From a virus, in IMG/VR virus record IMGVR_UViG_3300017758_000086, positions 1 to 28,088 of that record: a stretch of DNA of 28,088 nt; one strand, given 5' to 3'. This document shows, one piece after another, positions 2,007-18,631 of the stretch. The position numbers were made by a program, and so were the translations under genes. Each line of letters opens with the position of its first letter. Position 1 is the first letter of the stretch. A model generated the notes under the pieces. It had not been told where the DNA came from. It did no database searches and saw nothing but the letters and a program-made list of their open reading frames with translations.

Positions 2007-4133
2007 TTAAAATGTACCGCCGTCAATACCTGTAACTGTTACTGCACCTGAACTTACTGTGAAGTTAGCTGAAGCGAATGAAGCCACACCTTTATTTGAA
2101 GTTGTTGCCAATTCAGCAGCGATTGTTAATGTATCTCCAGAAACAGATGAGTCAATACCTTCTCCGCCAGATACAGTTAATGTATCTCCTAAATCTACTG
2201 CGTTAGTTGTTCCACTATCAGCAGCTACAGAAATTGTAGAGTTTGATAGTTTAGCATTTGTAATTGAACCTGCTAATTTAGCGGTTGCAATAGAACCTGC
2301 TAACATGGCATTTGTAATACCTAAAGCCTTAACTCTTAATGCGTCTGAACTTACTTCGATTGAACTGTCATCTACTGCAACATCAATTTGGTTACCAGTT
2401 TTTGTTAATGCGTCACCAGCACTAATTTGACCTGCACCTGAGAACTGAGCAAATGTAATACTGTCTGAACCAAATGTTGGTGTACCGTTGTGAGTTGCAA
2501 CATAACCGTTATCTGCGTTTGCTGTACCTGCTTCTACGAAGAAGAAAGTACCGCCTGTTAATTCAGCAGCTGTGTCTGCGTCTGGACTTCTTGTTAATAC
2601 GAACACAGCAGAACCAGAACCTGTTGCTGTTACTTTATAGATACCGTTTTGTACTGCACTTGCCTGGTCTTTAACAAGTATTCTATCATTAACTGATACT
2701 GTAACACCATCAACTGTCAATGCACCGTTAGCGTCAGCAGTTAAAGTACCGTTACCGTTATTATAAGTTACGGCTGATAATGCAGCTGCCGTTGCAACAG
2801 CACATGATTCTTTTACATCAAGTCCGTTTGCAACACTATCCACATATGCTTTTGTAGCAGCGTCTTGGTCACTTGTCGGGTCAGTAACACTTGTAATTCT
2901 ACTAGAGTTTACATCAACTGTACCAGAACCGTTAGGGTCTAAAACAAGGTTACCATTTGAGTTAGTTGTTGAAACTGTATTTGCGTCAATCGTAATGTTA
3001 TCAATTTTTGCAATTGTAACTGGTGTTGTGTTACCAACTGTACCGCCTTCGATTGTAGCAGTATTGATAGCTGGACTTGTTAAAGTCTTATTTGTTAATG
3101 TTTGTGTAGCAGCTAATCCTGCAAAACTTTCAGATTGTAAAGCAGTATTAAATTCTGCCAAACTACCTGTTATTGTGTTAGTCGCTAAATCAATTGATTT
3201 GTTTGTAAGAGTATCAGTTGTTGCCTTACCAACTAATGTATCAGTAGCCGCTGGCAAAGTAACTGTAACATTACCTGAATATGCCGAGTGAGCTGCTGAT
3301 TGTAAAGCTGTGTAATGTGCGTTAGAACTTTCACAATATAATCTAATTGCTGAAGCAGTACCATCATTTTTAATTTCAATTAAACCAGTTGCTAAATTAA
3401 TTCTATCATTACCAGCAATTTTAATGTTAATTGTATCATCTGTATCAGCTGTAATAGATGTATCAGCGTCTGCGTCTAATTTTAACTCTGTGCCATTCAT
3501 ATCAAGGCCGTTAAATACGGCATTGGCATCAAAGTCAATTGTTAGTGTATCACCTGATAGTGAAGTTGCTAAACCTGTACCACCTGTAATTTTTAAAGTT
3601 TCAGTTAATAGATTGATTGATGTTGATGTGGAACTTTCATCAACTAAAGTAAGTGTCGTTGCTGGAGCGGCAAACGATAACCCACCTGAACCGTCTGTTG
3701 TTAATACATGGCCACTTGAGCCATCTGCACCTGGTAATGTTAATGCTAGGTTAGCTGCAACTGAATTTGGTGATTTTAAAGATACGAAATGTGAACCGTT
3801 ATTTGTTCCTTCGTTAAATTTAAGTGTACCACCAACTGTTGCCGAGTTACCTATATTTAATGTATCTATTGCTGAATTTGAGTCTGCTGTTAAAGCTGAA
3901 CTTGCTGTAAGTGTACCATCTACATGGTCTAATTTATCTGCGAAGTATTGACCGCCAATAACTGTAACATTATTTGCGTCACCGTTTCCATCTACGCCAC
4001 CTTCACCAACAAATAATCTATCTCCTAGGTTTGCTTGAGTACCTGTACCAAAAGTATAGGCTAACTCTCCTAGTTTAAGCGTTGAAGGAGCGGAAGTATT
4101 CGAACTTCGTTTTATCTGAATTACTGTTGACAT
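2007..4133 (-). CDS. Large tail-fibre protein, 708 aa
   Basis: This is the largest true fibre gene here. Residues 1-46 (MSTVIQIKRSS ... LKLGELAYTFG ... GDRLFVGEGG) match the common start of marine T4-like phage fibre proteins. The middle contains repeats of the type TLTNK(S/T)(I/L) near 308-313 and 345-351. A segment near 262-295 ending in VTLPAATDTL is shared in style with the 253-aa protein. Residues 422-441 (DQDAATKAYVDSVANGLDVK) are a hallmark of phage fibre proteins. The rest is beta-rich and ends with an SNKGVASFASANFTVSSG segment. Cysteines are rare. The start is ATG with AGGAG eight bases upstream, 10 bases after the 90-aa gene. It is probably a trimeric fibre shaft. The similarity is remembered from family patterns, not from a search. 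Confidence 0.85.
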   Translation of the reverse strand: MSTVIQIKRSSNTSAPSTLKLGELAYTFGTGTQANLGDRLFVGEGGVDGNGDANNVTVIGGQYFADKLDHVDGTLTASSALTADSNSAIDTLNIGNSATVGGTLKFNEGTNNGSHFVSLKSPNSVAANLALTLPGADGSSGHVLTTDGSGGLSFAAPATTLTLVDESSTSTSINLLTETLKITGGTGLATSLSGDTLTIDFDANAVFNGLDMNGTELKLDADADTSITADTDDTINIKIAGNDRINLATGLIEIKNDGTASAIRLYCESSNAHYTALQSAAHSAYSGNVTVTLPAATDTLVGKATTDTLTNKSIDLATNTITGSLAEFNTALQSESFAGLAATQTLTNKTLTSPAINTATIEGGTVGNTTPVTIAKIDNITIDANTVSTTNSNGNLVLDPNGSGTVDVNSSRITSVTDPTSDQDAATKAYVDSVANGLDVKESCAVATAAALSAVTYNNGNGTLTADANGALTVDGVTVSVNDRILVKDQASAVQNGIYKVTATGSGSAVFVLTRSPDADTAAELTGGTFFFVEAGTANADNGYVATHNGTPTFGSDSITFAQFSGAGQISAGDALTKTGNQIDVAVDDSSIEVSSDALRVKALGITNAMLAGSIATAKLAGSITNAKLSNSTISVAADSGTTNAVDLGDTLTVSGGEGIDSSVSGDTLTIAAELATTSNKGVASFASANFTVSSGAVTVTGIDGGTF

Positions 4134-4471: not shown

Positions 4472-4807
4472 TTATACTTTAGGATTGACGGTAATTACGC
4501 CTTCAATTACTCTAGTAACTGTACTTGATGAGGTTTGTGTTATATAAACATCATACACATATCTTGATGGAGCGTCTAAAGCTCCTGTTTGTGTATCGTT
4601 TAATGATAATGTTATTACGCCAGTTGCTGTATCGGCAGCTATTGATACTGTAAATGATACATTTGAACTTGCGCCATAACTCTTTGCAAGTCTAGCTTCA
4701 GCAGTATAACCCGCTAGGTCTACTGCGTTGCCGTCAGAATTAGTCACAGTTACATCTGAACTGAAACTAGCGCCTTGGTCTATTCTAAGATTTGCTACCG
4801 CTGCCAT
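4472..4807 (-). CDS. Small virion structural protein, 111 aa
   Basis: The protein begins MAAVANLRIDQGASFSSDVT and continues with VDLAGYTAEARLAKSYGASS, then a beta-rich tail ending in TRVIEGVITVNPKV. I recall very similar small proteins in the structural region of marine cyanophages and pelagiphages, where they appear as virion or fibre-associated proteins of unknown exact role. The fold suggests an immunoglobulin-like beta sandwich, which is an inference from the strand pattern. The first 23 bases overlap the end of the 74-aa gene, so the two are probably translationally coupled. The only SD-like element, AAGGTG, is rather far from the start. Confidence 0.7.
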   Translation of the reverse strand: MAAVANLRIDQGASFSSDVTVTNSDGNAVDLAGYTAEARLAKSYGASSNVSFTVSIAADTATGVITLSLNDTQTGALDAPSRYVYDVYITQTSSSTVTRVIEGVITVNPKV

Positions 4808-5019: not shown

Positions 5020-5027
5020 TATTTATA
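5020..5027 (-). promoter_or_regulatory. TATAAATA octamer close to the 74-aa gene start
   Basis: An exact TATAAATA on the minus strand lies in the 24-base gap between the 90-aa and 74-aa genes, only 10 bases before the ATG. A start 5-7 bases past the box would give an almost leaderless mRNA, and the AGGAA site would be cut away. It may therefore serve mainly the 111-aa and later genes, or be a chance AT-rich match. Confidence 0.45.
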
Positions 5028-5033
5028 AACTAT

Positions 5034-5306
5034 TTATCCGTTTTCATTCAATCTTTTTGAAACTGTTTCGTGGTCCTCTAAAACTTTCCAAGTAGAACCA
5101 TGATAACTATGAATTGATGTACCAATATCATCTTCAGCTGGATAAGCTGATAATATCGTATCAATATTTATGGTTATTGGTCTACCTAGATATGGTTGAG
5201 GTACATTATCACCCTCAATAATACTACCATTTGTAAATGTTTTAAATCTACCTTTTGATTTAGTAATCTTTAATGGTTTTAAATCGTTAAAATCAACATC
5301 ACTCAT
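5034..5306 (-). CDS. Hypothetical protein, 90 aa, coupled to the oxygenase block
   Basis: I do not recognise this protein. It starts MSDVDFNDLKPLKITKSKGR and contains a short basic stretch (residues 14-24). A mixed segment, DNVPQPYLGRPITINIDTIL, follows (about 33-52), and then HSYHGSTWKVLEDHETVSKR. It has no signal peptide or membrane segment and shows no fibre-like composition. The start is ATG with a good AAGGAG site. It overlaps the end of the 215-aa oxygenase-like gene by 8 bases, so it is probably co-translated with the oxygenase block. It could be an accessory or substrate-recognition protein for that block, but this is only context-based. Confidence 0.6.
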   Translation of the reverse strand: MSDVDFNDLKPLKITKSKGRFKTFTNGSIIEGDNVPQPYLGRPITINIDTILSAYPAEDDIGTSIHSYHGSTWKVLEDHETVSKRLNENG

Positions 5307-5946
5307 ATTTAAACTCCTTCAGTTTTAAGTAATCTATTTTGCTAGCTTCTGAAAATAACTCTGCGTCAACATGAAAATTAAAAGATACAGAATATCTTGT
5401 TATGTCTGAAATATTATTGTTTATAGAATGATACAAATGAGATGGAAATAATAGTATTTTACCGTCTTCAGGTGTTATATTGTAAACATCACAATTATGA
5501 TTATCAAATTTTTCAAACGGCACATTTGTGCTTGAATGAAATATATTTGTATAACCCATTGGTTTATGAAAGCAAATATCTCCAGAATTTTTTTTTGTTT
5601 GTATGTAATAGACACCACTCAATAAACTGTTTGCGTGAATATGAGATTGACCCCAATCATCACTTTGGTGTCTTACAGCCCAGCTGTTTTGCATATAAAA
5701 TTTAATATGCTTTTTTACATTTAAATATTTTTTAGTATATACATCTAAATGATTATTAATTTTTTCTTTTAGATTTTTGTATTTTGTGTCGTGCAATAGA
5801 TATTTGTTTTTTGTATAATCACCATTACCAGAGAACATTCTCTCGTAGTTTTCTTCTAATATATTTTTTTTATCATCTTCATTTATTTCTATATCGCCTG
5901 TATATACAGAAATAGGAAATAATTGAATTATCTTTGCTTCACTCAC
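5299..5946 (-). CDS. 2OG-Fe(II) oxygenase-like protein, TIGR02466/2OG-FeII_Oxy_5 type, 215 aa
   Basis: The core runs from about 88 to 193. SWAVRHQSDDWGQSHIHANS is followed by LLSGVYYIQTKKNSGDICF, and then by LLFPSHLYHSI and RYSVSFNF. This matches the jelly-roll oxygenase family whose signature is 'H-x-H-x-N-S-x-x-S-G-V-Y-Y-I ... S-G-D-I'. Likely metal ligands are H102 and/or H104 with H173. R184 is the likely 2-oxoglutarate anchor. An aspartate in the usual HxD position is absent. The start is GTG (5944-5946), overlapping the TAG stop of the 231-aa gene by one base, with AAGGTAAC upstream. The expected reaction is oxidation of a peptide or other substrate using O2 and 2-oxoglutarate. The substrate is unknown. 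Confidence 0.75.
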   Translation of the reverse strand: MSEAKIIQLFPISVYTGDIEINEDDKKNILEENYERMFSGNGDYTKNKYLLHDTKYKNLKEKINNHLDVYTKKYLNVKKHIKFYMQNSWAVRHQSDDWGQSHIHANSLLSGVYYIQTKKNSGDICFHKPMGYTNIFHSSTNVPFEKFDNHNCDVYNITPEDGKILLFPSHLYHSINNNISDITRYSVSFNFHVDAELFSEASKIDYLKLKEFKYE

Positions 5947-6641
5947 TATAGGTTACCTTTTATGTCACCACTTGGTTCTGTATAATAAAAGTGAGTTATT
6001 GTCCATCTGCCATGACCAAAAGGTAAAGTTTCATCTTTCATTTTAATTGGTGTAACTCTATGTAAATATGGGCAAGGAAATAAGATAGCTCTATTGTGTT
6101 TACATTTTACTTCGACACCTGGTTCATCTAAAACAAAATCACCACCCTCAAATGCTTTAGGTTCTTTATAAAACCAAACTAAATGTGTCCAAGCAAAAGA
6201 ATCAAAATGTGCGTCATAGTAATCATTACTTTCATAATAAGAAATTAGGTTTGTATTTTTATTTGAAACTGTAAAACTTCTATAATACGGAGCACAAAAC
6301 TCAATTAAGTCACGAAATTTTTGGTCTCTTACTTTATATAACATTCTTTCAATAGGCATTCTATCATAATTATCATCATGGTAAAAATTATTAGTATACC
6401 ATCTGTAAGAGTGTCCTTTTGCCGTGCCATCTTTTTCTCTAGCGACAATTGTATCTTCAGCTCTATGAATATCCGGCATATTTTTAAAGAGCTCTAATTC
6501 AGCCCAAACTGCTTTTTCTTCGTCAGGATTATACCAATTATCTACTACAATAAATGGGTATGTAGGATTTTTATCGAACTTTTTTACAATCCAATTCTGT
6601 TCAATTTCTACGCCGTCTGCATTTGTTATTTTTATTGACAT
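5946..6641 (-). CDS. 2OG-Fe(II) oxygenase-like protein, 231 aa
   Basis: The catalytic core is visible near residues 134-222. It reads SYYESNDYYDAHFDSFAWTH, then VWFYKEPKAFEGGDFVLDE, then AILFPCPYLHRVTPIK and GRWTITHFYYT. H145 and D147 form the HxD motif, H194 is the distal histidine, and R212 would bind the 2-oxoglutarate carboxylate. The complete set suggests an active non-haem iron dioxygenase of the prolyl-hydroxylase-like superfamily. Residues 1-60 are a family-variable N-terminus. The start is ATG with AAAGG upstream. Its stop overlaps the GTG of the next gene by one base. The substrate cannot be inferred from the sequence. Confidence 0.8.
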   Translation of the reverse strand: MSIKITNADGVEIEQNWIVKKFDKNPTYPFIVVDNWYNPDEEKAVWAELELFKNMPDIHRAEDTIVAREKDGTAKGHSYRWYTNNFYHDDNYDRMPIERMLYKVRDQKFRDLIEFCAPYYRSFTVSNKNTNLISYYESNDYYDAHFDSFAWTHLVWFYKEPKAFEGGDFVLDEPGVEVKCKHNRAILFPCPYLHRVTPIKMKDETLPFGHGRWTITHFYYTEPSGDIKGNL

Positions 6642-6659
6642 TATATACCTTTCAAAATA

Positions 6660-7511
6660 CTAATCTATAATATACTTTTTATCCGAGTCTAAATTAATCT
6701 CTGTAACATTACTTTCTTCTTCTGGTACAGGATTACTTTTTTTGTTTTCATAATCAATATAAGTATCTTCCATACCTAAAAAAGGTCTACCATCAAACAT
6801 TATATTATATTGTCCTTCTTTTTCATTGTAGTGCATGAAAAGTTGAGCATGATTATTACCCCATAGTGGTTCTCTCCAATGTTCAACAATATCACCTCTG
6901 TAAATTAACATATCGCCAGGTTTCATGTGAATAGGCATACCATTTGTGCCCTCTGCACCATCTTTAGGTCCTACAAACATTGGCCAATCCCAATCAGGAT
7001 ATTTACTTGCGTCAACATTTGAGTTGTCATAACCAATACAAAGCGTTGTAGATATTTCACAACTAGCTCTATCTTTATGTCTTTTTAATTCTGTACCTTG
7101 TGTGTATAATCTATGATATGAATAAGTTGGTATTAATTCTTTACCAGTTAACTCACACATTTTTTCTAGTGATAAACTTAATAGTGTATCAAATATAGGG
7201 TCACCGTATTTACTAAAATCACCAGGTGCTTGAGTGTCGTTAAAAGTACCATGTTGGCCTTCAGTTGTTGGTAAACCTTCGTCTTCCATATATGCAAGTC
7301 TAGCTGACTCAAGTTGAATATGATGATATAACAAATTTGTCATATCTTCTTTTAAAAATTTTTCAATTTTTACCCAACCATTTTCTTCAAAAAATTTAGC
7401 TGCTGGATGAACAGCTGCAGGATTTAATCCAGGCTGACCTTTTAACAATGACATTGCTTTTTCTTGCTCTGCCTCTGTTAAACTTTCCCAATTTGAAATT
7501 TGTTTATTCAT
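6660..7511 (-). CDS. 2OG-Fe(II) oxygenase-like protein, 283 aa
   Basis: The N-terminal part is helical (TEAEQEKAMSLLKGQPGLNP, about 12-31). A FFEENGWVKIEKFL segment follows (40-53), typical of dioxygenases of the prolyl-4-hydroxylase/phytanoyl type. The core reads YSYHRLYTQGTELKRHKDRA with H145 and D147 as the HxD pair. Next come IHMKPGDMLIYRGDIVEHWR with H211 as the distal histidine, and HAQLFMHYN. I see no clear arginine at the usual 10-residue spacing after H211, so cosubstrate binding may differ. The tail after about 245 is acidic and disordered-looking (PVPEEESNVTEINLDSDKK). The ATG has AGGAG upstream. It lies 12 bases after the 249-aa oxygenase gene. Confidence 0.75.
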   Translation of the reverse strand: MNKQISNWESLTEAEQEKAMSLLKGQPGLNPAAVHPAAKFFEENGWVKIEKFLKEDMTNLLYHHIQLESARLAYMEDEGLPTTEGQHGTFNDTQAPGDFSKYGDPIFDTLLSLSLEKMCELTGKELIPTYSYHRLYTQGTELKRHKDRASCEISTTLCIGYDNSNVDASKYPDWDWPMFVGPKDGAEGTNGMPIHMKPGDMLIYRGDIVEHWREPLWGNNHAQLFMHYNEKEGQYNIMFDGRPFLGMEDTYIDYENKKSNPVPEEESNVTEINLDSDKKYIID

Positions 7512-7523
7512 AATAACTCCTAT

Positions 7524-8273
7524 CTATTTAAATGGTTTTCCTAATGCCCATAATACTAATGAATATCTTGTTCCTTTTGTAACAGGTGTAACTTGATGGT
7601 AAATGTAAGAAGGAAATATAATTATAGAACCTTGAGGTCTAATTTCTTCACACTCATGGAATCTTTTTCCTCGAGCATGAGGACCAAAATCAAATTTTAA
7701 ATTTCCACCCTCATATTCACCTGGCTTATTTAGGTTGATAGTCATAGACAGCTTTCTTATCTTACCTACAAAATTTGAATTCTCTGTAAAGCCATGAGGG
7801 AATCTACCTTTTTCAGTTTTTTTATGTACACCTGGTATAAATCTTTTATATTTGCCAGGATGGTCGCTGTCACCATCAGCGTGCCAGCCATAAAATTGGT
7901 TTTTACCATATTTTGTAAATTGAAAAGACTCTGCACTATCAAAATCATATTCCCAACCTGACAATTTATTTGCTTTTTGTAAATATGGCCAAACTAAATC
8001 ATATAACCATTGTGGATTTATCCAAGCAGCTTCACTATCTCTTATAAAAGAACCTTTTTCTATATCTTGTGTTGATATACCTTTTTCATTTCGCAATTCT
8101 TCATATGTTATATCAGACATAGGTTTTGATTCTTTATTTACATCACCTTGTTTATGATTATAACCCATTGTAGTAGCAGGTTGTAAATTTTCTGAACCTA
8201 ATTTTATTATTTTTTGACAGACTTCATCTGACAGAGCATTTTGAAAATAGTAATAAGAATTTTTAATTAACAT
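7524..8273 (-). CDS. 2OG-Fe(II) oxygenase, PKHD/prolyl-4-hydroxylase-like, 249 aa
   Basis: This is the clearest oxygenase of the block. Residues 118-133 (QFTKYGKNQFYGWHAD) give H131 and D133. KLSMTINLNKPGEYEGGNLK follows (174-193), then IRPQGSIIIFPSYIYHQVTP with H226, and TRYSLVLWALGKPFK with R236. This matches PKHD-type or P4H-like phage hydroxylases known from marine T4-like viruses. The spacing HxD-H-R is intact, so catalysis is expected. Known relatives hydroxylate prolyl or lysyl residues, but the phage substrates are unknown. The start is ATG with a strong GGAG site. The stop is followed after 12 bases by the 283-aa oxygenase start, consistent with one operon. Confidence 0.88.
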   Translation of the reverse strand: MLIKNSYYYFQNALSDEVCQKIIKLGSENLQPATTMGYNHKQGDVNKESKPMSDITYEELRNEKGISTQDIEKGSFIRDSEAAWINPQWLYDLVWPYLQKANKLSGWEYDFDSAESFQFTKYGKNQFYGWHADGDSDHPGKYKRFIPGVHKKTEKGRFPHGFTENSNFVGKIRKLSMTINLNKPGEYEGGNLKFDFGPHARGKRFHECEEIRPQGSIIIFPSYIYHQVTPVTKGTRYSLVLWALGKPFK

Positions 8274-8296
8274 TATATATTTCTCCTATAATATAT

Positions 8297-9046
8297 TTAG
8301 TCGTCTGTCTGGAACACATAGTTTCCAGAAACACTAACTCTTGTGTCATCTGTCCAAAATGGTGGGACACTATGATTTAAATTTGCTGGAAATATGAACA
8401 TTAAATTGTTATAAGGTTTTACACTATATTCACTTCCCATTAAATTGAAAATAGGCACATCTTCACCATATTTAAAAATAATTTGACCTGGTGTATTAGT
8501 ATTAGTTTTTACATATGACTGGTCAAATATTCTTTCAGGCACTTTACAAAAAATTACAAATGACAATAATCCAAAATGAGTATGAGGTGGGTTATAATCT
8601 CCTGCTTTTTGATAATTTATCCACAAACTATCTAAAGCTAAAGGAAATCTATATGCGTTTTTAAAAGAAGTTTCACCAAAATCTTGTTTATACTGTTGAC
8701 TTCTAGCTTGCATAGGTAATGTCATGGCTCTTTTCATATAAGTTTCACCTTTTAGCTCTTCCATAAAATACATAAAGTCAGATACATAAGTCGCTATTTT
8801 TTTAGCGAAATATTTTTTATCTTCTACGGTGTAGTCATAACTACATCCTTGTTTCATATTACCAGCTAATTTTTCTCTAAAGTCATTCTGTTTGACATTT
8901 AACTTATCACCTCTTTTCAATAAACTATCTACCAATTCATCTTCAACATCAACTTGATATATTGGTGGGCTAAAAGGCGTTATTACTTTAGCACCACTTC
9001 TTAACTTATGTTGAGAACAATTAGTTTGAAATCGGTTTTTTTTCAT
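8297..9046 (-). CDS. 2OG-Fe(II) oxygenase-like protein with HxH motif, 249 aa
   Basis: The core lies at about 138-246. LDSLWINYQKAGDYNPPHTH is followed by FGLLSFVIFCKVP, PGQIIFKYG, NNLMFIFPANLNHSVPPFW and RVSVSGNYVF. The candidate metal residues are H155 and/or H157, with H225 as the distal ligand. R236 sits at the right distance to bind 2-oxoglutarate. As in the 215-aa protein, HxH replaces HxD. The first 110 residues are rich in lysine and charged helices and have no obvious family. The start is ATG, but the ribosome site is weak (GAG about 10 bases upstream). It lies 19 bases after the 65-aa gene. The substrate is unknown. Confidence 0.72.
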   Translation of the reverse strand: MKKNRFQTNCSQHKLRSGAKVITPFSPPIYQVDVEDELVDSLLKRGDKLNVKQNDFREKLAGNMKQGCSYDYTVEDKKYFAKKIATYVSDFMYFMEELKGETYMKRAMTLPMQARSQQYKQDFGETSFKNAYRFPLALDSLWINYQKAGDYNPPHTHFGLLSFVIFCKVPERIFDQSYVKTNTNTPGQIIFKYGEDVPIFNLMGSEYSVKPYNNLMFIFPANLNHSVPPFWTDDTRVSVSGNYVFQTDD

Positions 9047-9065
9047 TTTATAATCTCATACTATA

Positions 9066-9263
9066 TTATTTTGTAGCTTTTTTAATTTGTTTTATTAACT
9101 TAGCTTTTGTAAGTCTTTTGTCTAATTCAATACCTACTTTTCTACCAAGTTTTTCTAAATCAGCTTTTGTTTTTTTTTCTAATCCTTTTAGATTTATTTC
9201 GTTTTTTAAAACTAAAGGTTTTTGTGGAAAAAACAATTGTTTTATTTTATTAATTATGTTCAT
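9066..9263 (-). CDS. Lysine-rich small protein with HeH/SAP-like motif, 65 aa
   Basis: Residues 31-62 (KKTKADLEKLGRKVGIELDK then RLTKAKLIKQIKKA) have the helix-extension-helix pattern of HeH/LEM, SAP or Rho-N modules. These often bind nucleic acid or act as docking helices, and they occur in many phage proteins. About a third of the protein is lysine. The start is ATG with an ideal AAAAGGAG site. It interrupts the oxygenase block, lying between the 197-aa and 249-aa oxygenase genes. It may be a binding or docking partner of the block, which is inference from context. The motif call rests on pattern only. Confidence 0.6.
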   Translation of the reverse strand: MNIINKIKQLFFPQKPLVLKNEINLKGLEKKTKADLEKLGRKVGIELDKRLTKAKLIKQIKKATK

Positions 9264-9284
9264 AAATTCTCCTTTTAATTAATA

Positions 9285-9292
9285 TATTTATC
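9285..9292 (-). promoter_or_regulatory. Possible late promoter, GATAAATA (7 of 8)
   Basis: The minus strand reads GATAAATA, one base from the consensus. It overlaps the end of the 197-aa gene and lies 22 bases before the 65-aa gene, whose AAAAGGAG site follows. The spacing resembles the perfect late boxes in this window. It could drive the lower part of the oxygenase block. Confidence 0.4.
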
Positions 9293-9884
9293 ATGCTTCC
9301 ATGAAGTTAATCCAACCTGTTATTATCATCTTTTCATCATCATTAGATATAACACCTTTGTGAGGATGTGTGAAACCTGCTGGCCATATCACAGTATTGC
9401 CCTTAACACATTCTGTTGTAATATTCTGTCTAGGAAAAATTGTGCCTGCGTTTTCTGTGTCTGTTAGATAAGTCATAAAAACCATCTCTCTATGTCTAGT
9501 ATTTGCTGTCATTCTTTCAAAATGCAAATCTTTAAATCCACCACCTTTTGGATAATACTGTATGTTAGTATTTTCTGTAATACTAAAAGGACCCCATTTA
9601 ATATTGAAATCTGATTTACCTTGAGAAAAATAGTCAAAATACTTATCGCAATAATCATTCAACATCTTTCTTAAAACCTTAAAGTAAGATGAAATGTATT
9701 TTTGTTCATTTACAGGTATTGATATTTCTTTTGATTCTTTCATTCCTAAATTAATTCTTTTTTCTTGGCCTACAACACCATCAAGTGCTTTATCTATATT
9801 GTCATTATATAGTGTAATAATCTCATCACATATACTTAATGGCATTTTATATTCTTTAATAAAAGTTTCTACTTTATATGACAT
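9291..9884 (-). CDS. 2OG-Fe(II) oxygenase-like protein with HxE motif, 197 aa
   Basis: The core at about 105-194 contains TNIQYYPKGGGFKDLHFERM, then MVFMTYLTDTENAGTIFPRQ. VKGNTVIWPAGFTHPHKGVI and KMIITGWINF follow. This is the prolyl-4-hydroxylase-like family in which 'GWH-E/D' is followed by 'Y-L-N-D/T-x-x-x-G-T-x-F' and 'W-P-A-x-F-T-H-x-H-x-G'. The candidate ligands are H121, E123 and H173 or H175, and K185 may hold 2-oxoglutarate. A glutamate replaces the usual aspartate. The ATG lies inside the end of the upstream 194-aa gene (11-base overlap) with no strong SD, so translational coupling is likely. Confidence 0.78.
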   Translation of the reverse strand: MSYKVETFIKEYKMPLSICDEIITLYNDNIDKALDGVVGQEKRINLGMKESKEISIPVNEQKYISSYFKVLRKMLNDYCDKYFDYFSQGKSDFNIKWGPFSITENTNIQYYPKGGGFKDLHFERMTANTRHREMVFMTYLTDTENAGTIFPRQNITTECVKGNTVIWPAGFTHPHKGVISNDDEKMIITGWINFMEA

Positions 9885-10458
9885 TATAATTTATTATTAA
9901 CCTTTTATTATTTTCAGGTTGACAGGCTGTATGCCAAAAATAACCATCAAAAACAACAACTCTACCTTTTTTAGGAGTTACTCTTTTATTTTCTATTAGG
10001 TCTTTCATATTAGGTACTGTCATACCGTTTTCATAATTATTTTTATATATTACTGTATCACCATCACTATCAACAACATAATACAATACAACTAAATGTC
10101 TAAAATCTGTAATATCTAAATGGGGGCTGTCAACGATATGTTTATCTTTTAAATTTAATGGTAATTGTAGAAATGCTCGACCTTGAAGTATTTTAGAATA
10201 CTGATAACCTATTTTTTTACATGAATTTTTTATGATAGGTATTAAGGGCTCGTGAAATTTACTATTTGGTCCGTCCCTATCTACAAAGTAATGAGAAAAA
10301 CCAGGTCGTTGTTGAACTTTATTGTCTGGAATAGAAACATCTTTGTTGAAAAACCAAGGAAAATCTAAACTAAGGAAAGTATTTTCAATGTCATCTTGTA
10401 ATTTGACATCTATAATATCATCAAATACCCATATTTTATTACGATATAACTCGCTCAT
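9874..10458 (-). CDS. 2OG-Fe(II) oxygenase-like protein, 194 aa, first of the oxygenase block
   Basis: The core reads IVDSPHLDITDFRHLVVLYY with H113 and D115. DSDGDTVIYKN follows, then KKGRVVVFDGYFWHTACQPE with H176, and KRLIINYNV with R186. This is a complete HxD-H-R set with family-like spacing, so an active non-haem iron dioxygenase is likely. The N-terminus (NKIWVFDDIIDVKLQDDIEN) resembles the opening helix of phage 2OG oxygenases. The start is ATG with no strong SD nearby (TTGAGG is about 17 bases away). It follows a glycine-rich adhesin gene by 40 bases and overlaps the next oxygenase gene by 11 bases. Confidence 0.82.
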   Translation of the reverse strand: MSELYRNKIWVFDDIIDVKLQDDIENTFLSLDFPWFFNKDVSIPDNKVQQRPGFSHYFVDRDGPNSKFHEPLIPIIKNSCKKIGYQYSKILQGRAFLQLPLNLKDKHIVDSPHLDITDFRHLVVLYYVVDSDGDTVIYKNNYENGMTVPNMKDLIENKRVTPKKGRVVVFDGYFWHTACQPENNKRLIINYNVI

Positions 10459-10498: not shown

Positions 10499-12073
10499 TT
10501 AGTAAGTTACGATTACGATACCTTTACCGCCAGCACCACCACTTAATTGGTTACCTTGTGAAGCACCACAACCTCCGCCACCAGAACCTCTGTTAGTAGA
10601 ACCGTCTGCACCACCATTACCTTGTGAACCTGCATTACCGCCGCCACCTGCGCCGCCTGAACCTGGTTGACCATCATTGCCACCAATATTTCCTTGACCA
10701 CCTGAACCACCGCCACCTGCGTATGTTACCGAAGAACCTGAAATATTATATGCTTTACCTGCTCCGCCTGCTCTTTGTGAAGATTGACCACCTTGTGTAC
10801 CGGCTGCACCTGAACCACCGCCTGAACCTGAAGGTGTACCAGGATTTCCTCCTGTACCTCCTGCTGTTCCAAAACCGTAAGTACCTGAATCACCTGGTTG
10901 AGTTGGTTGTATTCCACTAGGTGTTGGAGCACCTGGTGTTGCTGTTGCACCCCAACCGGCAGTACCGCCACCTGAGCCACCATTCTGACCTTTGTTTCCG
11001 TTGTAACCATCTGGATGACCTGGAGCATCTCCTGAACCTCCGCCACCACCGCCTTTAGCAGTTAATGTTCCAAATACTGAATCTTGTCCTATGTGTGTTG
11101 GACCTGGATGTGAACCACCTGCACCGACATTTGCTTGACCGCCAGAACCTACTGTTACTGAAACAGTACCGCCTGGTGTTACTGGAAATGATGGTCTATA
11201 AATTAAACCACCTGCACCGCCACCACCGGCCGCAACTGCATTATTATTTGAACCACCACCTGAACCACCGCCAGCAATTACTAATACATCAACTGCTGAT
11301 ATACCACTTGGTACTGAAAAAGTACCTGAAGATGTAAATGATTGTGTTACTGGAGCAGTTATAGTTATTGTGTATTGTCTATCACTAATATTAGAAGCAG
11401 CGTCTTTAGCTCTAATTGTAAATGTTGAAGTTGTGTTAGAACCTGGAACAGTTTGTGTTCCTGAAATTACTGCACCTGAAGATGTCGAAGCAAAACTTAA
11501 TCCTGCTGGAATAGAACCTGATTCTAATGTATAAGTTGGGTCAGCACCTGACTCGGGGTCATGGGCTGCAATTGTAATTGCTGAATATCCTCCAGAGTTT
11601 CCTGAATATAAACTACCTGCAGCTGTTTGAAAAACTGGTTGTGCGTCAATATTTAATGCGTCTGCTAATGTACCTGCAAGACCAGATGTGTTAGAAATTT
11701 TTACATCAAATGGTTCATTTGCATTTGTTAAATTTGCTTTATTTTTTGCAACAACTAAAGTAGCTTGCGTTGAGCTATTTCTTGTTGTAGTATCAGGTGT
11801 TATAGATACACCACCGTCTGTTATGATTTCTGCTGTTACATTTGTTGAAAAACTCGAACCAGTTACAACTATTGTATAATTACCTGTACCATCACCTGTT
11901 AATAAGTTAGCAGGCGAAACACTTGAAACTAATGGTGGACTATCAATAGATTTCCATGATGTACCATCATAATACTCCATCAAATTAGTTGATGTGTTAA
12001 ATCTCATTTTTCCAGCTTCTTCGATACTTCGTTGAGCTGTTGTTCCTGAACTTATTCCTTTTCTCTGTGCCAT
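10499..12073 (-). CDS. Glycine-rich adhesin-like tail-fibre protein, 524 aa
   Basis: Residues 1-45 (AQRSIEEAGKMRFNTSTNLM then EYYDGTSWKSID) are a common phage fibre start. Residues about 50-145 form an IPT-like beta domain (VSSVSPANLLTGDGTGNYTI). Residues 146-240 form a He_PIG/cadherin-like domain (SGSIPAGLSFASTSSGAVIS; FTIRAKDAASNISDRQYTIT). From 241 on the protein is a glycine-rich domain opening with QSFTSSGTFSVPSGISAVDV and ending GGKGIVIVTY. It contains TQPGDSGTYGFG. The glycine-rich tip resembles polyglycine-rich phage adhesins, so host receptor binding is inferred. It has three paralogues in this window. The ATG is preceded by AGGATAAATA at close distance. Confidence 0.82.
   Translation of the reverse strand: MAQRKGISSGTTAQRSIEEAGKMRFNTSTNLMEYYDGTSWKSIDSPPLVSSVSPANLLTGDGTGNYTIVVTGSSFSTNVTAEIITDGGVSITPDTTTRNSSTQATLVVAKNKANLTNANEPFDVKISNTSGLAGTLADALNIDAQPVFQTAAGSLYSGNSGGYSAITIAAHDPESGADPTYTLESGSIPAGLSFASTSSGAVISGTQTVPGSNTTSTFTIRAKDAASNISDRQYTITITAPVTQSFTSSGTFSVPSGISAVDVLVIAGGGSGGGSNNNAVAAGGGGAGGLIYRPSFPVTPGGTVSVTVGSGGQANVGAGGSHPGPTHIGQDSVFGTLTAKGGGGGGSGDAPGHPDGYNGNKGQNGGSGGGTAGWGATATPGAPTPSGIQPTQPGDSGTYGFGTAGGTGGNPGTPSGSGGGSGAAGTQGGQSSQRAGGAGKAYNISGSSVTYAGGGGSGGQGNIGGNDGQPGSGGAGGGGNAGSQGNGGADGSTNRGSGGGGCGASQGNQLSGGAGGKGIVIVTY
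11456..11533. repeat. 78-base direct repeat in an adhesin gene, copy 1
   Basis: This stretch of the 524-aa adhesin-like gene matches 13619-13696 in the 559-aa gene at 76 of 78 positions by eye. It encodes part of the He_PIG-like domain around SIPAGLSFASTSSGAVISGT. Surrounding sequence is clearly more diverged, so recent gene conversion or recombination between the paralogues is plausible. Confidence 0.75.
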
Positions 12074-12694: not shown

Positions 12695-14374
12695 CTAGTA
12701 TCTTACTATTACTATTCCTTTACCGCCACTACCTGCGTTTGTATTACCTGGTGATTGACTAGAGTTTCCTCCTCCGCCACCACCTCTGTTAGCAGAACCA
12801 TCTTGACCAGCAGCGCCTTTATTTCCGTCTCCGCCACCGCCTTGACCTCCTTGTCCACCTTGACCACCTGAACCTGGTTGGCCGTCTTCACCGCCTCCAC
12901 CACCGCCTGCATAGTAAACTGAAGTTGAACCATCTGCGATTGTATATGCTTTACCTGCACCACCTTGACCACCTACAGTTGACGCTGTATGTCTATCTTC
13001 ACCAGCTGCGCCAGCACCACCGCCACCGCCTCCTGGGTCAGCATTGTTATTTGAACCTCGTCCACCTGGATTACCAAATCCGTATTGTCCTGATTCTCCT
13101 GGCTGTGTTGGTTGAGTAGCAGTACCACCTGTACCATTACCATAATTACCTGAACCACCGCCACCAGAACCACCTGATTGTCCTGTATTATTTGAGTGTG
13201 TTGGTGTATTGAAACAACCAGCAGCACCACCGCCTTTAGCAGTTAGTGTTCCGAATACTGAATCTTGTCCGTCATCACCTCTACCGCCGGCACTTGTATT
13301 ATCTCCACCACCTGAACCAACTGTTACTGTAATAGTACCGCCTGGTGTTACTGTGAATCCTGGTCTGTAAATTAAACCGCCGGCACCACCGCCGCCTCCA
13401 CCTTGTGAAGAACCTTTTCCACCTGCACCGCCACCACCGACTACAAGTACATCAACTGAACTTACGCCACTTGGTACAGCGAAAGTACCTGAAGATGTAA
13501 ATGATGTTGACTGTGGACCGTTAACCGTGATTGAGAATATTCTATCGCTGACATTTGAAGCAGCGTCTTTAGCTCGAATAGTAAATGTAGATGTAGTGTT
13601 TGAAGATTGTGCGTCTGCTGTTCCTGAAATTACTGCACCTGAAGATGTTGAAGCAAAACTTAATCCTGCTGGAATAGAACCCGATTCTAATGTATATACC
13701 GGGTCGCCACCTGATTCTGGATCCGCAGCTGCAACTGTAAATGATAAACCTGACCTTGCACTATTTAATACAGTACCTAATGAACCTGCAGCTGTACTAA
13801 ACACCGGTGATTGGTCGATATTAAGAGCATTATCTAAAGAAGAAGCAAGTCCTGTCGAAGCCGTAACATTAATATCATAAGGTTCGCCTGAACCTGGTAA
13901 ACTTGACTTAGCAACTACACCTGTAATTTGTGTGGCACTATCTACTGTTTGTGAAGAAAAGTTTATAGAACTTCCTGAATTGTTAATTAATTTTGCTGTT
14001 GCACCTGAAAAACCTTGTCCTGTAATTACAATTGTATGATTACCTGTACCATCACCTGATAAAGCATTTGTTGGTGAAATACTTGTAACTGTAGGAAAGT
14101 TTAAAAGATTTGTTTGTGTTACTTTCTTTAATGAACCAGTTGATGTATCATAAATTAATACTTGGTCATTAGAAGCAGCACCTGTTCCTAATGCTGTTTT
14201 GTTTGTAATAATTCCAGGACCGACTACATTTTGAGATTGAATAGCTTTCAATCCATCAGAGCTAGCGTCATACAATAAAAACTCGTCTGTATCAGCCGCT
14301 TCTGCACCTAGATTAGTTTGGTCTTTAATCGCCCCTTTATCTAGTCCGCCTTTTCCTACTTTTGTTAGTGCCAT
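12695..14374 (-). CDS. Glycine-rich adhesin-like tail-fibre protein, 559 aa
   Basis: Residues 1-90 hold two short repeats of the type 'D-x-F/V-L-I/L-Y-D-x-S-x-G-x-L-K', as also seen in the 656-aa paralogue. About 93-190 is an IPT-like domain (FPTVTSISPTNALSGDGTGN). About 190-288 is a He_PIG-like domain with SGSIPAGLSFASTSSGAVIS. About 289-559 is the glycine-rich domain, opening with TSFTSSGTFAVPSGVSSVDV and ending GGKGIVIVRY. Inside it is TQPGESGQYGFG. A 78-base stretch of the He_PIG region is 76/78 identical to the 524-aa gene. It is probably a receptor-binding tip or a fibre that carries one. The ATG follows AAGAGAG. Confidence 0.82.
   Translation of the reverse strand: MALTKVGKGGLDKGAIKDQTNLGAEAADTDEFLLYDASSDGLKAIQSQNVVGPGIITNKTALGTGAASNDQVLIYDTSTGSLKKVTQTNLLNFPTVTSISPTNALSGDGTGNHTIVITGQGFSGATAKLINNSGSSINFSSQTVDSATQITGVVAKSSLPGSGEPYDINVTASTGLASSLDNALNIDQSPVFSTAAGSLGTVLNSARSGLSFTVAAADPESGGDPVYTLESGSIPAGLSFASTSSGAVISGTADAQSSNTTSTFTIRAKDAASNVSDRIFSITVNGPQSTSFTSSGTFAVPSGVSSVDVLVVGGGGAGGKGSSQGGGGGGAGGLIYRPGFTVTPGGTITVTVGSGGGDNTSAGGRGDDGQDSVFGTLTAKGGGAAGCFNTPTHSNNTGQSGGSGGGGSGNYGNGTGGTATQPTQPGESGQYGFGNPGGRGSNNNADPGGGGGGAGAAGEDRHTASTVGGQGGAGKAYTIADGSTSVYYAGGGGGGEDGQPGSGGQGGQGGQGGGGDGNKGAAGQDGSANRGGGGGGNSSQSPGNTNAGSGGKGIVIVRY
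13619..13696. repeat. 78-base direct repeat in an adhesin gene, copy 2
   Basis: This is the second copy of the repeat at 11456-11533, in the same reading frame and domain of the 559-aa paralogue. The two visible mismatches are T/C changes. The 656-aa and 553-aa genes carry much more diverged versions of the same region. Confidence 0.75.
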
Positions 14375-14839: not shown

Positions 14840-16810
14840 TTAGTATGATACAATAACGATACCTTTTCCACCGTTACCGCCATCATCAGCGTTAGAACTT
14901 TGTGTGGATCCTCCACCGCCGCCTCCGCCTGTATTTGCTTGAGCACTTGTTCCTGCACCGCCGCCTGATTTACCTGCACCACCGCCGCCGCTACCACCTT
15001 GGCCGCCTGTAGCGCCTGATTCTCCTGAACCTCCACCGCCACCGGAATATGATACTGAAGAACCTGAAATATTGTATGCTTTACCTGCACCACCTTGACC
15101 ACATTGAGAACCGTTGATTAATGCGTCTGTACCTACAGCACCTGCACCACCGCCTCCTCCGCCTGCGTATCCACCAGGACCTGAACGACCATCGCCGCCT
15201 CTACTACCGAATCCGTAAGTGCCTGAATCTCCTGGTTGAGTTGATTGAATTTGTTGTCCATATTGAGATTGTCCACCTGATGAACCTCTAGCACCACCGC
15301 CACAGCCACCTGGACTTCCTGGTTGAACCATACCTCTACCACCTGAACCACCGCCACCGCCTTTAGCAGTCAATGTTCCAAATACTGAATCTTGTCCTGT
15401 TTGTGATGGTTTGTTAATAGCATTTTGTGAATTGTCATAACCACCATGAGCACCACCTGAACCAACTGTTACTGAAACAGTACCGCCTGGTGTTACTGCA
15501 AAACCTGGTCTGTAAACTAAACCACCTGCACCGCCACCAGCACCGCCAGAACCTCCTCCGCCACCACCACCGGCAACTACTAATACATTGACGGATGATA
15601 CAGAAGCAGGTACAGAAAAAGTACCTGAAGATGTAAATGATTGTGATACTGGAGCTGATATTTGAATTGTAAATTGTCTGTCGCTAACATTTGAAGCTGC
15701 GTCTTTAGCTCTGATTGTAAATGTTGATGTTGTATCAGAACCTACAGCGTCTGCTGTTCCTGATATTCTAAAACCTGAACTTTCGGATGTTCCTGTTAAT
15801 CCTGTTGGTAATGAACCACTTTCTATTGTGTAAGAAGCGTCACCGCCTGACTCGGGGTCAGAAGCAAAAACAGTTATAGGAGTAATTGTTCGACCTGAAT
15901 CTGGAAAAATACCTAATGAACCAGCCGCATTACTAAACACCGGTGATTGGTCAACATTAATTTGATTCTCTAATGTACTCGCAAGTCCTGTTGCAGCCGT
16001 AACATTAACATCATAAGGTTCTCCTGAACCTGGTACATTTGATTTAGCAACGACACCAGTTATTTGTGTGTCTGAGTCAACTGTTTGTGAAGCAAAGTTA
16101 ATTGATGAACCACTAGCACTAATTAGTTTTGCTGTACCACCTACAAAACCATTACCTGTTATAACAATAGTGTGATTACCTGTACCATCACCTGATAATA
16201 CATTTGTTGGCGATACACTTGAAACTGTTGGAAAATTTAATAAATTTCTCTGTGTTATTTTTTTTAATGCACCAGCTGATATATCATAAATTAATAATTG
16301 GTCACCTACAGCTGCACCTGTACCTAAAGCAGTTTTACCTGTAATTAATGTTTCGTTTGGTGTAACATTTGAAGCTTTAATTTTTTTAATTCCACTTGCT
16401 GAATCATCATATATTAAATATGCGTCATCATCAGCAGCCGCTTCTGCTAATTCTGTTTGGCCTGAAATAACTGTTGCATTTAATTTAGCTGCTGTAATAG
16501 CGTTGTCAGCGACGGAAGAAAATTCGCCTTGAACTGTACCTGGATTTAATACTACAACATTATTTGTGCCTGCAGCTGGAGCAGATGTAAATGTAATTCT
16601 TTTATATTCTCCAGTTGCGTCAACGCCTAGAGAAAAATCTGTGCCAGGAATTTTTTGAGTGCCGGCTACAAATACTTGAATGTCATTTTGACCTGCTTCT
16701 GCAATACTAAATTGCATATCAAAAATTGTTGTAGAACCATCACCGCTGAAAGTATCTTTATCTGTAAATGTTCTAAATGCTGTACCTGGGTTTTTTGCAA
16801 TATAAGGCAT
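14840..16810 (-). CDS. Glycine-rich adhesin-like tail-fibre protein, 656 aa (longest paralogue)
   Basis: Residues about 20-90 are the GDGST module (TFSGDGSTTIFDMQFSIA ... ITFTSAPAAG). Residues 118-190 contain two copies of a short 'YLIYD/LLIYD-x-SAG-x-KK' linker. About 193-287 is an IPT-like domain (FPTVSSVSPTNVLSGDGTGN). About 288-387 is a He_PIG-like domain. About 388-656 is the glycine-rich domain ending GGKGIVIVSY, with TQPGDSGTYGFG inside. Unlike the two neighbouring paralogues it carries an extra N-terminal module. It is probably a fibre with a receptor-contacting polyglycine-type tip, an inference from the composition of known phage adhesins. The ATG has GAGAGAG upstream. Confidence 0.82.
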   Translation of the reverse strand: MPYIAKNPGTAFRTFTDKDTFSGDGSTTIFDMQFSIAEAGQNDIQVFVAGTQKIPGTDFSLGVDATGEYKRITFTSAPAAGTNNVVVLNPGTVQGEFSSVADNAITAAKLNATVISGQTELAEAAADDDAYLIYDDSASGIKKIKASNVTPNETLITGKTALGTGAAVGDQLLIYDISAGALKKITQRNLLNFPTVSSVSPTNVLSGDGTGNHTIVITGNGFVGGTAKLISASGSSINFASQTVDSDTQITGVVAKSNVPGSGEPYDVNVTAATGLASTLENQINVDQSPVFSNAAGSLGIFPDSGRTITPITVFASDPESGGDASYTIESGSLPTGLTGTSESSGFRISGTADAVGSDTTSTFTIRAKDAASNVSDRQFTIQISAPVSQSFTSSGTFSVPASVSSVNVLVVAGGGGGGGSGGAGGGAGGLVYRPGFAVTPGGTVSVTVGSGGAHGGYDNSQNAINKPSQTGQDSVFGTLTAKGGGGGSGGRGMVQPGSPGGCGGGARGSSGGQSQYGQQIQSTQPGDSGTYGFGSRGGDGRSGPGGYAGGGGGGAGAVGTDALINGSQCGQGGAGKAYNISGSSVSYSGGGGGSGESGATGGQGGSGGGGAGKSGGGAGTSAQANTGGGGGGGSTQSSNADDGGNGGKGIVIVSY

Positions 16811-17208: not shown

Positions 17209-17237
17209 TATTTATACTTCTATTTATACTATTTATA
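17209..17237 (-). promoter_or_regulatory. Three tandem perfect late promoter octamers
   Basis: Exact TATAAATA occurs on the minus strand at 17230-17237, 17221-17228 and 17209-17216. All three sit in the 53-base gap before the 121-aa structural gene. The two upstream boxes leave room for a leader carrying the AGGAAG site. The last box is 13 bases from the ATG. Tandem boxes could raise promoter strength or give staggered starts. Confidence 0.75.
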
Positions 17238-17881: not shown

Positions 17882-18631
17882 CTATACTGCTAATGCAATT
17901 CCTCTTAAATCTTTAATTACAGGTGGATAAGCAGAATTAGTACCTTTCATTACAATTTTGATTTGAAAAGCTGTAAACTCTGTAATATCACTTACTGTAT
18001 ATTTGTATTCTTTAAATGTTCCTGCGTCTTCAGCCGGAGTAACAGTTACATCTTCACTGCCGTCCGTGTTGAAAGGTGTCCAATTTAATTCATCTATATT
18101 TCTAACTTCTTCAGCTGATGTTGCTCTAAAGTAAACTTCAACATCTGAAGTTGAACGAACATTTTGAGTTAATCTAACATCAAATGCTGTTGAAGGATTT
18201 TCTAATGTAATTGGTCTTGTACAATAGATAGCAGCTGTAGATGAACCTGTAGATTGTTCATCATTTACAAAACTAGGTGTATTAGATGTAGTTGGACTAT
18301 TTAATCTATTTTGAATTGTAAATGCACTTGTTCTTTGTAAATCTAAAACTGGTGATAATTTAGTATTAGTTGTTTGCATTACTAATTGTACAAATAATGA
18401 TTTTTGACCTGACATTTCATTTGTTTGGTTAATATCACTTGCAACCATTTGAGGCGCTGTAAAGTAAATATTATCATTTGCAACAACAGATTGGTAATTA
18501 GATGAACTTGTTAAACTAAATTCTGATTCTGAACCGTGTATAGATTTACCTGTTGTCGGTCTAATCTGATATCCAATTGATGTTTCTGGAACTGTCATAG
18601 ATTGTAAACTTAAATTTCGTACATCATACAA
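17882..18631 (-). CDS. C-terminal part of the DUF4815-type structural protein, in a second frame (249 aa)
   Basis: The frame overlaps the end of the 1784-codon gene by 22 bases. The only start at its upstream edge is TTG (18629-18631), and the first ATG lies at codon 12. The sequence RPTTGKSIHGSE, then FTIQNRLNSPTTSNTPSFVN, FDVRLTQNVRSTSDVEVYFR and PPVIKDLRGIALAV is what I recall as the C-terminus of the large structural protein of marine T4-like phages. There it is one continuous chain. The simplest explanation is a lost base in a T run near 18630-18631, since one added T joins the frames as ...TATQIDLYDVRNLS.... Programmed frameshifting, or a real split gene using TTG, is the alternative. 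Confidence 0.7.
   Translation of the reverse strand: MYDVRNLSLQSMTVPETSIGYQIRPTTGKSIHGSESEFSLTSSSNYQSVVANDNIYFTAPQMVASDINQTNEMSGQKSLFVQLVMQTTNTKLSPVLDLQRTSAFTIQNRLNSPTTSNTPSFVNDEQSTGSSTAAIYCTRPITLENPSTAFDVRLTQNVRSTSDVEVYFRATSAEEVRNIDELNWTPFNTDGSEDVTVTPAEDAGTFKEYKYTVSDITEFTAFQIKIVMKGTNSAYPPVIKDLRGIALAV

Follow-up and report, generated by a model that had tools for sequence, protein, structure and literature searches.

Why does a phage carry a row of seven dissimilar oxygenase genes among its tail fibre genes, and on what might the encoded enzymes act? In abundant marine phages, sets of 2-oxoglutarate (2OG) oxygenase genes rank with the most frequent cargo that still lacks an explanation. The case analyzed here comes from a 28-kb IMG/VR virus record (IMGVR_UViG_3300017758_000086; 28,088 nucleotides, studied at full length and referred to as the window), whose nearest phage in a DNA search is Pelagibacter phage Mosig. 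Seven consecutive 2OG-Fe(II) oxygenase genes (O1 to O5, O7 and O8) occupy the minus strand of the window at 5299-10458, with a single interruption by a gene for 65 amino acids. Oxygenase runs as such are already known; what the analysis suggests as new is a non-random association of such runs with a single type of fibre tip rich in glycine, frequently together with halogenases.

The seven oxygenase genes

The run is transcribed in the order O8, O7, 65-amino-acid gene, O5, O4, O3, O2, O1. A sequence-only reading of the window had described seven such genes in a row with one small gene between them, and all open reading frames were confirmed at these positions on the minus strand. O8 (9874..10458, 194 amino acids), O7 (9291..9884, 197 amino acids), O4 (7524..8273, 249 amino acids) and O2 (5946..6641, 231 amino acids) matched PF13640 with E-values of 2.5e-6, 1.5e-6, 1.8e-13 and 9.5e-8, respectively, O7 in addition phrog_61 (2.4e-29). 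O5 (8297..9046, 249 amino acids) and O1 (5299..5946, 215 amino acids) are of the PF13759 type (E=7.9e-12 and 2.6e-23), the latter also matching TIGR02466 (4.5e-26). O3 (6660..7511, 283 amino acids) belongs to phrog_2954 (E=7.6e-42); it matched no Pfam or NCBIfam family and was the only one of the seven that did not pass a Pfam gathering cut-off. Its AlphaFold2 model and Foldseek nevertheless place it with the other six, so that the dioxygenase assignment proved right throughout the run. Sequence searches of the PDB yielded no matches for O8 and only weak ones for O7, prolyl 4-hydroxylases among them. The small gene (9066..9263) has a weak Rho_N-like match and is found at the same place of the run in the nearest relatives, with up to 86% identity. 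A recent tandem duplication is ruled out, in agreement with the first reading, as the other six proteins share only 13-25% identity with O1 in a rough alignment.

On the other hand, that reading had taken a cluster of this size to be exceptional, which it is not, since runs of four to eight are common in relatives. Mosig possesses six consecutive members (00055-00060), S-SM1 a cluster of seven recognised by Pfam or PHROG (33.8-39.7 kb), S-CREM1 seven annotated 2OG genes and a JmjC gene in a row, and the longest run among the IMG/VR loci examined comprises eight. The genome of cyanophage S-SCSM1 contains 24 2OG oxygenase genes, whose function was, according to the authors who describe this phage, not specifically investigated (PMC9602691). 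A recurrent element of the runs is O4 immediately followed by O3, an order seen in 44 of 61 cases when truncated contigs are counted too.

Active sites and selection

The conservation of the iron ligands was computed within each family, over relatives diverging down to 17-30% identity. All three ligands were 100% conserved in O1 (H102/H104/H173), O2 (H145/D147/H194), O3 (H145/D147/H211), O5 (H155/H157/H225) and O8 (H113/D115/H176). The same applies to H131/D133 of O4 and H121/H175 of O7, while H226 of O4 reached 97% and E123 of O7 95%; the HxD/E...H triad is thus 95-100% conserved in the relatives of O2, O3, O4, O7 and O8. In an alignment of 36 relatives of O3, H145, D147, R148, H211 and R213 were invariant. 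O1 and O5 have HxH instead of HxD/E, likewise invariant in their relatives, and as the motif recurs in 3bvc and 2rg4, two PF13759 members of solved structure, it is a family trait. Iron coordination and chemistry of PF13759 enzymes with HxH may depart from those of canonical 2OG oxygenases. A basic 2OG anchor about ten residues past the distal histidine is present in O1 (R184), O4 (R236), O5 (R236), O7 (K185) and O8 (R186). In O2 this anchor is displaced, while O3, with an invariant glutamine at the +12 position, shows no evident one.

Compared with the syntenic contig L011, the seven genes had ratios of nonsynonymous to synonymous substitution rates of 0.11-0.41; synonymous sites were almost saturated. 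Judged by these values, all seven are under purifying selection, and together with the intact iron sites this predicts that the enzymes are active oxygenases.

Folds and database annotations

The model of O3 (mean predicted local distance difference test score 85) was most similar to the prolyl-4-hydroxylase of Pseudomonas putida (E=2e-9). All 50 PDB matches listed were 2OG oxygenases, PHD2 and others following the P. putida enzyme; some small-molecule oxygenases scored as well. For O4, sequence comparison revealed a distant similarity to PKHD-type PiuC (E~1e-3), and the best match of its AlphaFold2 model was the collagen prolyl hydroxylase of PBCV-1 (E=1e-10), with the P. putida enzyme also close. 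According to the models, O3 and O4 hence combine a prolyl-4-hydroxylase-type fold with an HxD...H site; they may hydroxylate peptidyl-proline.

These results affect two database labels. The family of O3, phrog_2954, is labelled ferrochelatase, which, going by the models, looks wrong: a ferrochelatase family was found neither in Pfam at E<=1 nor among the 50 PDB fold matches listed for O3. The S-SM1 protein named ferrochelatase shares the O3 fold in a search of a viral structure library (root-mean-square deviation 1.6 over 149 columns). The label seemingly goes back to a 'Hyp. with ferrochetalase domain' in Sullivan et al. 2010 (PMC3037559); PMC9599517 kept it and interpreted 'ferrochelatases' located with the oxygenases as their iron or haem partners. 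Similarly, the label 'DNA endonuclease V' of O8 (phrog_274) appears wrong, since Pfam detected in this protein a 2OG oxygenase only.

Linkage to glycine-rich tips and halogenases

To follow the link between oxygenases and adhesins through the neighbourhoods of relatives, PF13640, PF13759, phrog_2954, PF21722 and PF04820 were located in 19 whole phage records. Fifteen isolates had a cluster of at least three 2OG genes and a PF21722 (Gly_rich_2) domain, and in 12 of them the largest cluster lay no more than 7 kb from a PF21722 tip. Random rotation led to an expectation of 2.1, and none of 20,000 shifts reached 12. A halogenase was located within 5 kb of a 2OG cluster in nine of 12 genomes (1.5 expected), S-B64 and S-MbCM6 being counterexamples. 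Both sets of counts have to be read with the sampling in mind: the genomes are mutually related and were chosen via O3, O4, fibre-region or halogenase matches, both distance thresholds were set after the neighbourhoods had been seen, and rotation ignores the preference of both features for the late region. Biochemistry aside, the proposed link to fibres is supported statistically and holds genome-wide. A literature search, with most subscription journals outside its reach, retrieved no paper tying these clusters to fibre modification.

The runs of relatives are often joined by flavin-dependent (tryptophan) halogenases and sometimes by carbamoyltransferases or a sulfotransferase. In nonredundant loci, 13 of 19 halogenase genes directly adjoined a 2OG gene, compared to 36 of 223 other genes for at least 250 amino acids (Fisher p=2.4e-6, an optimistic value as genes were treated as independent). 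The order glycine-rich tip gene(s), halogenase(s) and 2OG run was encountered in Syn9, S-RIM44, P-TIM40, S-WAM1, S-CREM1, S-SZBM1, P-RSM6 and Sf-FR1. Syn9 and S-CREM1 have tips of the PF21722 type, as do the three fibres upstream of the run in the window, and JmjC_2 members are present in cyanophage cassettes. Syn9 gp42 is situated at the corresponding match to the part of Syn10 in which a halogenase is encoded (Syn10 has two). The first characterised viral halogenase, VirX1, is derived from Syn10 (PMC8407142).

Some genes in or near such cassettes deserve separate mention. 'Minor coat protein' genes of cyanophage cassettes (L099:8204-8995, L100:11469-12233) had no structural Pfam match, so that the label looks doubtful; the one of S-RIM44 showed only a weak DUF6445 match. 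In S-SSM5, a gene annotated as 'leprecan-like' (prolyl 3-hydroxylase-like; L115:2498-3016) belongs to a similar cassette and adjoins a carbamoyltransferase gene. A further contig (L043) encodes several halogenase-type flavoproteins, one of 392 amino acids with only a partial Trp_halogenase match (8437-9615), in the vicinity of 2OG genes and of a GroEL-like gene; this site is outside the pelagimyophage-type island.

Genomic setting and transcription of the run

The host-recognition cluster of pelagimyophages has been described as lying between VrlC on one side and the neck protein gp14 on the other (PMC7029224). The window has this layout and represents the host-recognition island of a SAR11-type, T4-like phage similar to pelagimyophages. 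In pelagimyophages this island is hypervariable and also includes lipopolysaccharide (LPS) glycosyltransferase genes (PMC7029224). One edge of the island is marked by a baseplate protein of 1784 amino acids (18610..23964, minus strand; phrog_358), called VrlC-like by its position and by comparison with PMC7029224, next to a gp6-type baseplate wedge (23976-25436; PHROG match). Three fibre genes on the minus strand with a PF21722 domain follow towards the run, at 14840..16810, 12695..14374 and 10499..12073. The last of them, directly upstream of O8, encodes an adhesin with 23% glycine and 5% proline. Downstream of the run, also on the minus strand, genes for an L-shaped tail fibre assembly-like small protein (4472..4807; phrog_3304, E=1.4e-24) and a fibre-like protein (2007..4133; PHROG match) were detected. 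Other PHROG matches in the window concern small assembly proteins and fibre-like genes, and no sugar genes were recognised in it by Pfam and PHROG profile scans.

The motif TATAAATA, which we take to be the T4-type late promoter core, occurs ten times in the window (4.2 expected), always on the coding strand and in most instances shortly before the start of a gene. Going upstream from the run, the first exact copies are a group of three at 17209..17237 (minus strand), and the next one beyond the run is located at 5020-5027. Since there is no exact copy between 5027 and 17209, an interval reaching from the three glycine-rich fibre genes through the end of the run, the run forms, by this motif, one unit with these fibres. 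Sites with one mismatch precede fibre genes, so that internal promoters are possible. In Mosig, an exact copy is situated one gene upstream of the run.

Possible substrates

The explanation we favour, though only tentatively and with somewhat less than even confidence, is a tailoring cassette expressed late, by which proteins would be hydroxylated. With Fe(II), O2 and 2-oxoglutarate, its enzymes would act on protein side chains, most likely those of the adhesins that the phage itself makes from the same region, whose binding or stability might be altered. O4 and O3 would form a conserved core with prolyl-4-hydroxylase fold while other members are swapped in and out, and in related phages the same cassette also includes flavin halogenases, carbamoyltransferases or JmjC_2 hydroxylases. 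The models of O3 and O4 are closest to protein hydroxylases, namely the P. putida prolyl-4-hydroxylase acting on EF-Tu, PHD2 and the PBCV-1 collagen prolyl-4-hydroxylase. In the passage on S-SCSM1 virion proteomics (PMC9602691), the non-structural proteins named include no 2OG enzyme, which would fit enzymes that act and then leave; a search for modifications is not mentioned there. Of the first reading's interpretation, the dioxygenases and their link to adhesins stood; the supposed rarity did not, nor did a collagen-type hydroxylation of Gly/Pro-containing tips. A collagen-like substrate is disfavoured by the low proline content of tips near clusters (1-6%) and by their longest run of consecutive Gly-X-Y triplets, which is eight.

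Several observations weigh against adhesin tailoring. Likeness of modelled folds to protein hydroxylases names no substrate. The pelagipodophages HTVC025P and HTVC200P have glycine-rich adhesins without PF13640 or PF13759 enzymes, and Melnitz-3 has several glycine-rich tips and only scattered 2OG genes. About 63% of the 2OG genes in the tested genomes lie outside the main cluster. Within loci, adjacency of 2OG blocks and glycine-rich genes was not above that in shuffled loci (19 versus 15.5, p=0.17); the whole-genome test was preferred because all loci are already in the fibre region. In a mirror-tree comparison of divergence across loci, O1 to O5 were mutually correlated (rho 0.62-0.85), O8 being excepted, whereas the correlation between enzymes and tips was weaker (rho 0.25-0.60). 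The enzymes thus travel as a block and are not matched to one tip. In HTVC008M, the run is inverted and lies on the strand opposite to the fibre and neck genes (L093:11403-14682), and the strand of the run contained no exact TATAAATA in the 30 kb examined; timing may therefore vary between phages.

The main rival is the proposal that the cassette decorates a polysaccharide of the host surface or produces a metabolite that is halogenated and carbamoylated, and thereby alters the surface of the infected cell (superinfection exclusion) or its competitiveness. The first reading had likewise named modification of the host surface as its alternative. Along these lines, a passage of Iyer et al. 2021 (PMC7824862) interprets a cluster of halogenase, 2OG, cupin and carbamoyltransferase genes of S-SSM6a as serving to decorate the capsule or to make secondary metabolites. 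Carbamoyltransferases and a sulfotransferase adjoining some runs, the heptose genes next to a carbamoyltransferase in S-CAM3 and the LPS glycosyltransferases of the pelagimyophage island (PMC7029224) point in the same direction. However, the window lacks recognised sugar genes, the fold matches of O3 and O4 are led by protein hydroxylases, even if small-molecule oxygenases also score for O3, and this proposal, which we consider unlikely, gives no reason to expect a link to a single type of adhesin.

It is also conceivable, if rather improbable, that the genes have no common function, the hypervariable island (PMC7029224) simply gathering independent cargo and the linkage reflecting insertion hot spots beside fibre genes. 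The differing order and membership of the runs and the non-significant adjacency within loci would be expected from such a process. By contrast, the recurrence of O4 followed by O3, the correlated divergences of the enzymes (mostly rho 0.6-0.85) and the position of halogenases beside 2OG genes argue against it.

JmjC_2 is a family linked to ribosomal oxygenases. The resemblance of cyanophage cassette members to such enzymes and the best fold match of O3, an EF-Tu prolyl hydroxylase, would agree with a hydroxylation, at a late stage of infection, of proteins that the host uses in translation (EF-Tu, ribosomal proteins). We regard this as quite improbable, as it leaves both the linkage to glycine-rich tips and halogenases and the presence of seven divergent enzymes unexplained. 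Auxiliary metabolism, by which a draw-down of 2-oxoglutarate would steer nitrogen control and energy, or else DNA repair, was put forward for cyanophages by Sullivan et al. 2010 (PMC3037559; reviewed in PMC2984593) and is very improbable here, since bulk turnover of 2-oxoglutarate needs no seven divergent conserved active sites, Pfam recognised no clearly AlkB-like member in the window, and the run is not beside repair genes.

Adhesin tailoring could be extended to a general statement, namely that the cassette of marine T4-like phages, consisting of 2OG hydroxylases and often of halogenases and carbamoyltransferases, is dedicated to post-translational tailoring and chemically diversifies their own receptor-binding tips, and that the native substrate of VirX1 is a fibre protein. 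In this general form the idea is doubtful. If clusters beside glycine-rich tips do modify adhesins, host range would have a chemical layer that is invisible in the sequence, and the VirX1 substrate could be tested on existing isolates. The most useful additions are a corrected identity for the 'ferrochelatase' family and the recognition of a recurring cassette of glycine-rich tip, halogenase and hydroxylases in cultured phages, due to which the substrate question becomes testable by mass spectrometry of virions. The labels 'ferrochelatase' and 'DNA endonuclease V' merit correction regardless, as they have fed ideas on iron and haem metabolism.

Comparison with known systems

The cluster of S-SSM6a unites the same enzyme classes as the cassettes described here; in the passage of PMC7824862 it is interpreted as a capsule or secondary-metabolite system, and adhesin linkage is not discussed there. 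The prolyl 4-hydroxylases of P. putida, PBCV-1 (vCPH) and PHD2 resemble O3 and O4 in fold and HxD...H site, even though they are only 13-19% identical to them. Pelagipodophages of the HTVC023P type (PMC9599517) have fewer genes, with homologues of O3 and O4 adjacent or nearly so in the structural region; their description as ferrochelatase and oxygenase is contradicted by the O3 model. The cassettes of S-CREM1 (SCREM1_67-79) and Syn9 (gp38-gp51) hold a halogenase and JmjC_2, both absent from the window; their order is PF21722 tip, tryptophan halogenase, 2OG run. The closest counterpart is the run of Mosig EXVC030M (Mosig_00055-00060). Its neighbours are different, and the bilin genes ho1 (heme oxygenase) and pcyA directly follow the run (L001:11355-12591), in a phage of the non-phototroph SAR11; both genes are also near the oxygenase run in the IMG/VR locus L039. 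What the Mosig run and the window have in common is the island itself, the run of Mosig being located between a glycine-rich fibre gene and the neck gene gp13, and orthologues of O3 (46% identity) and O4 (50%).

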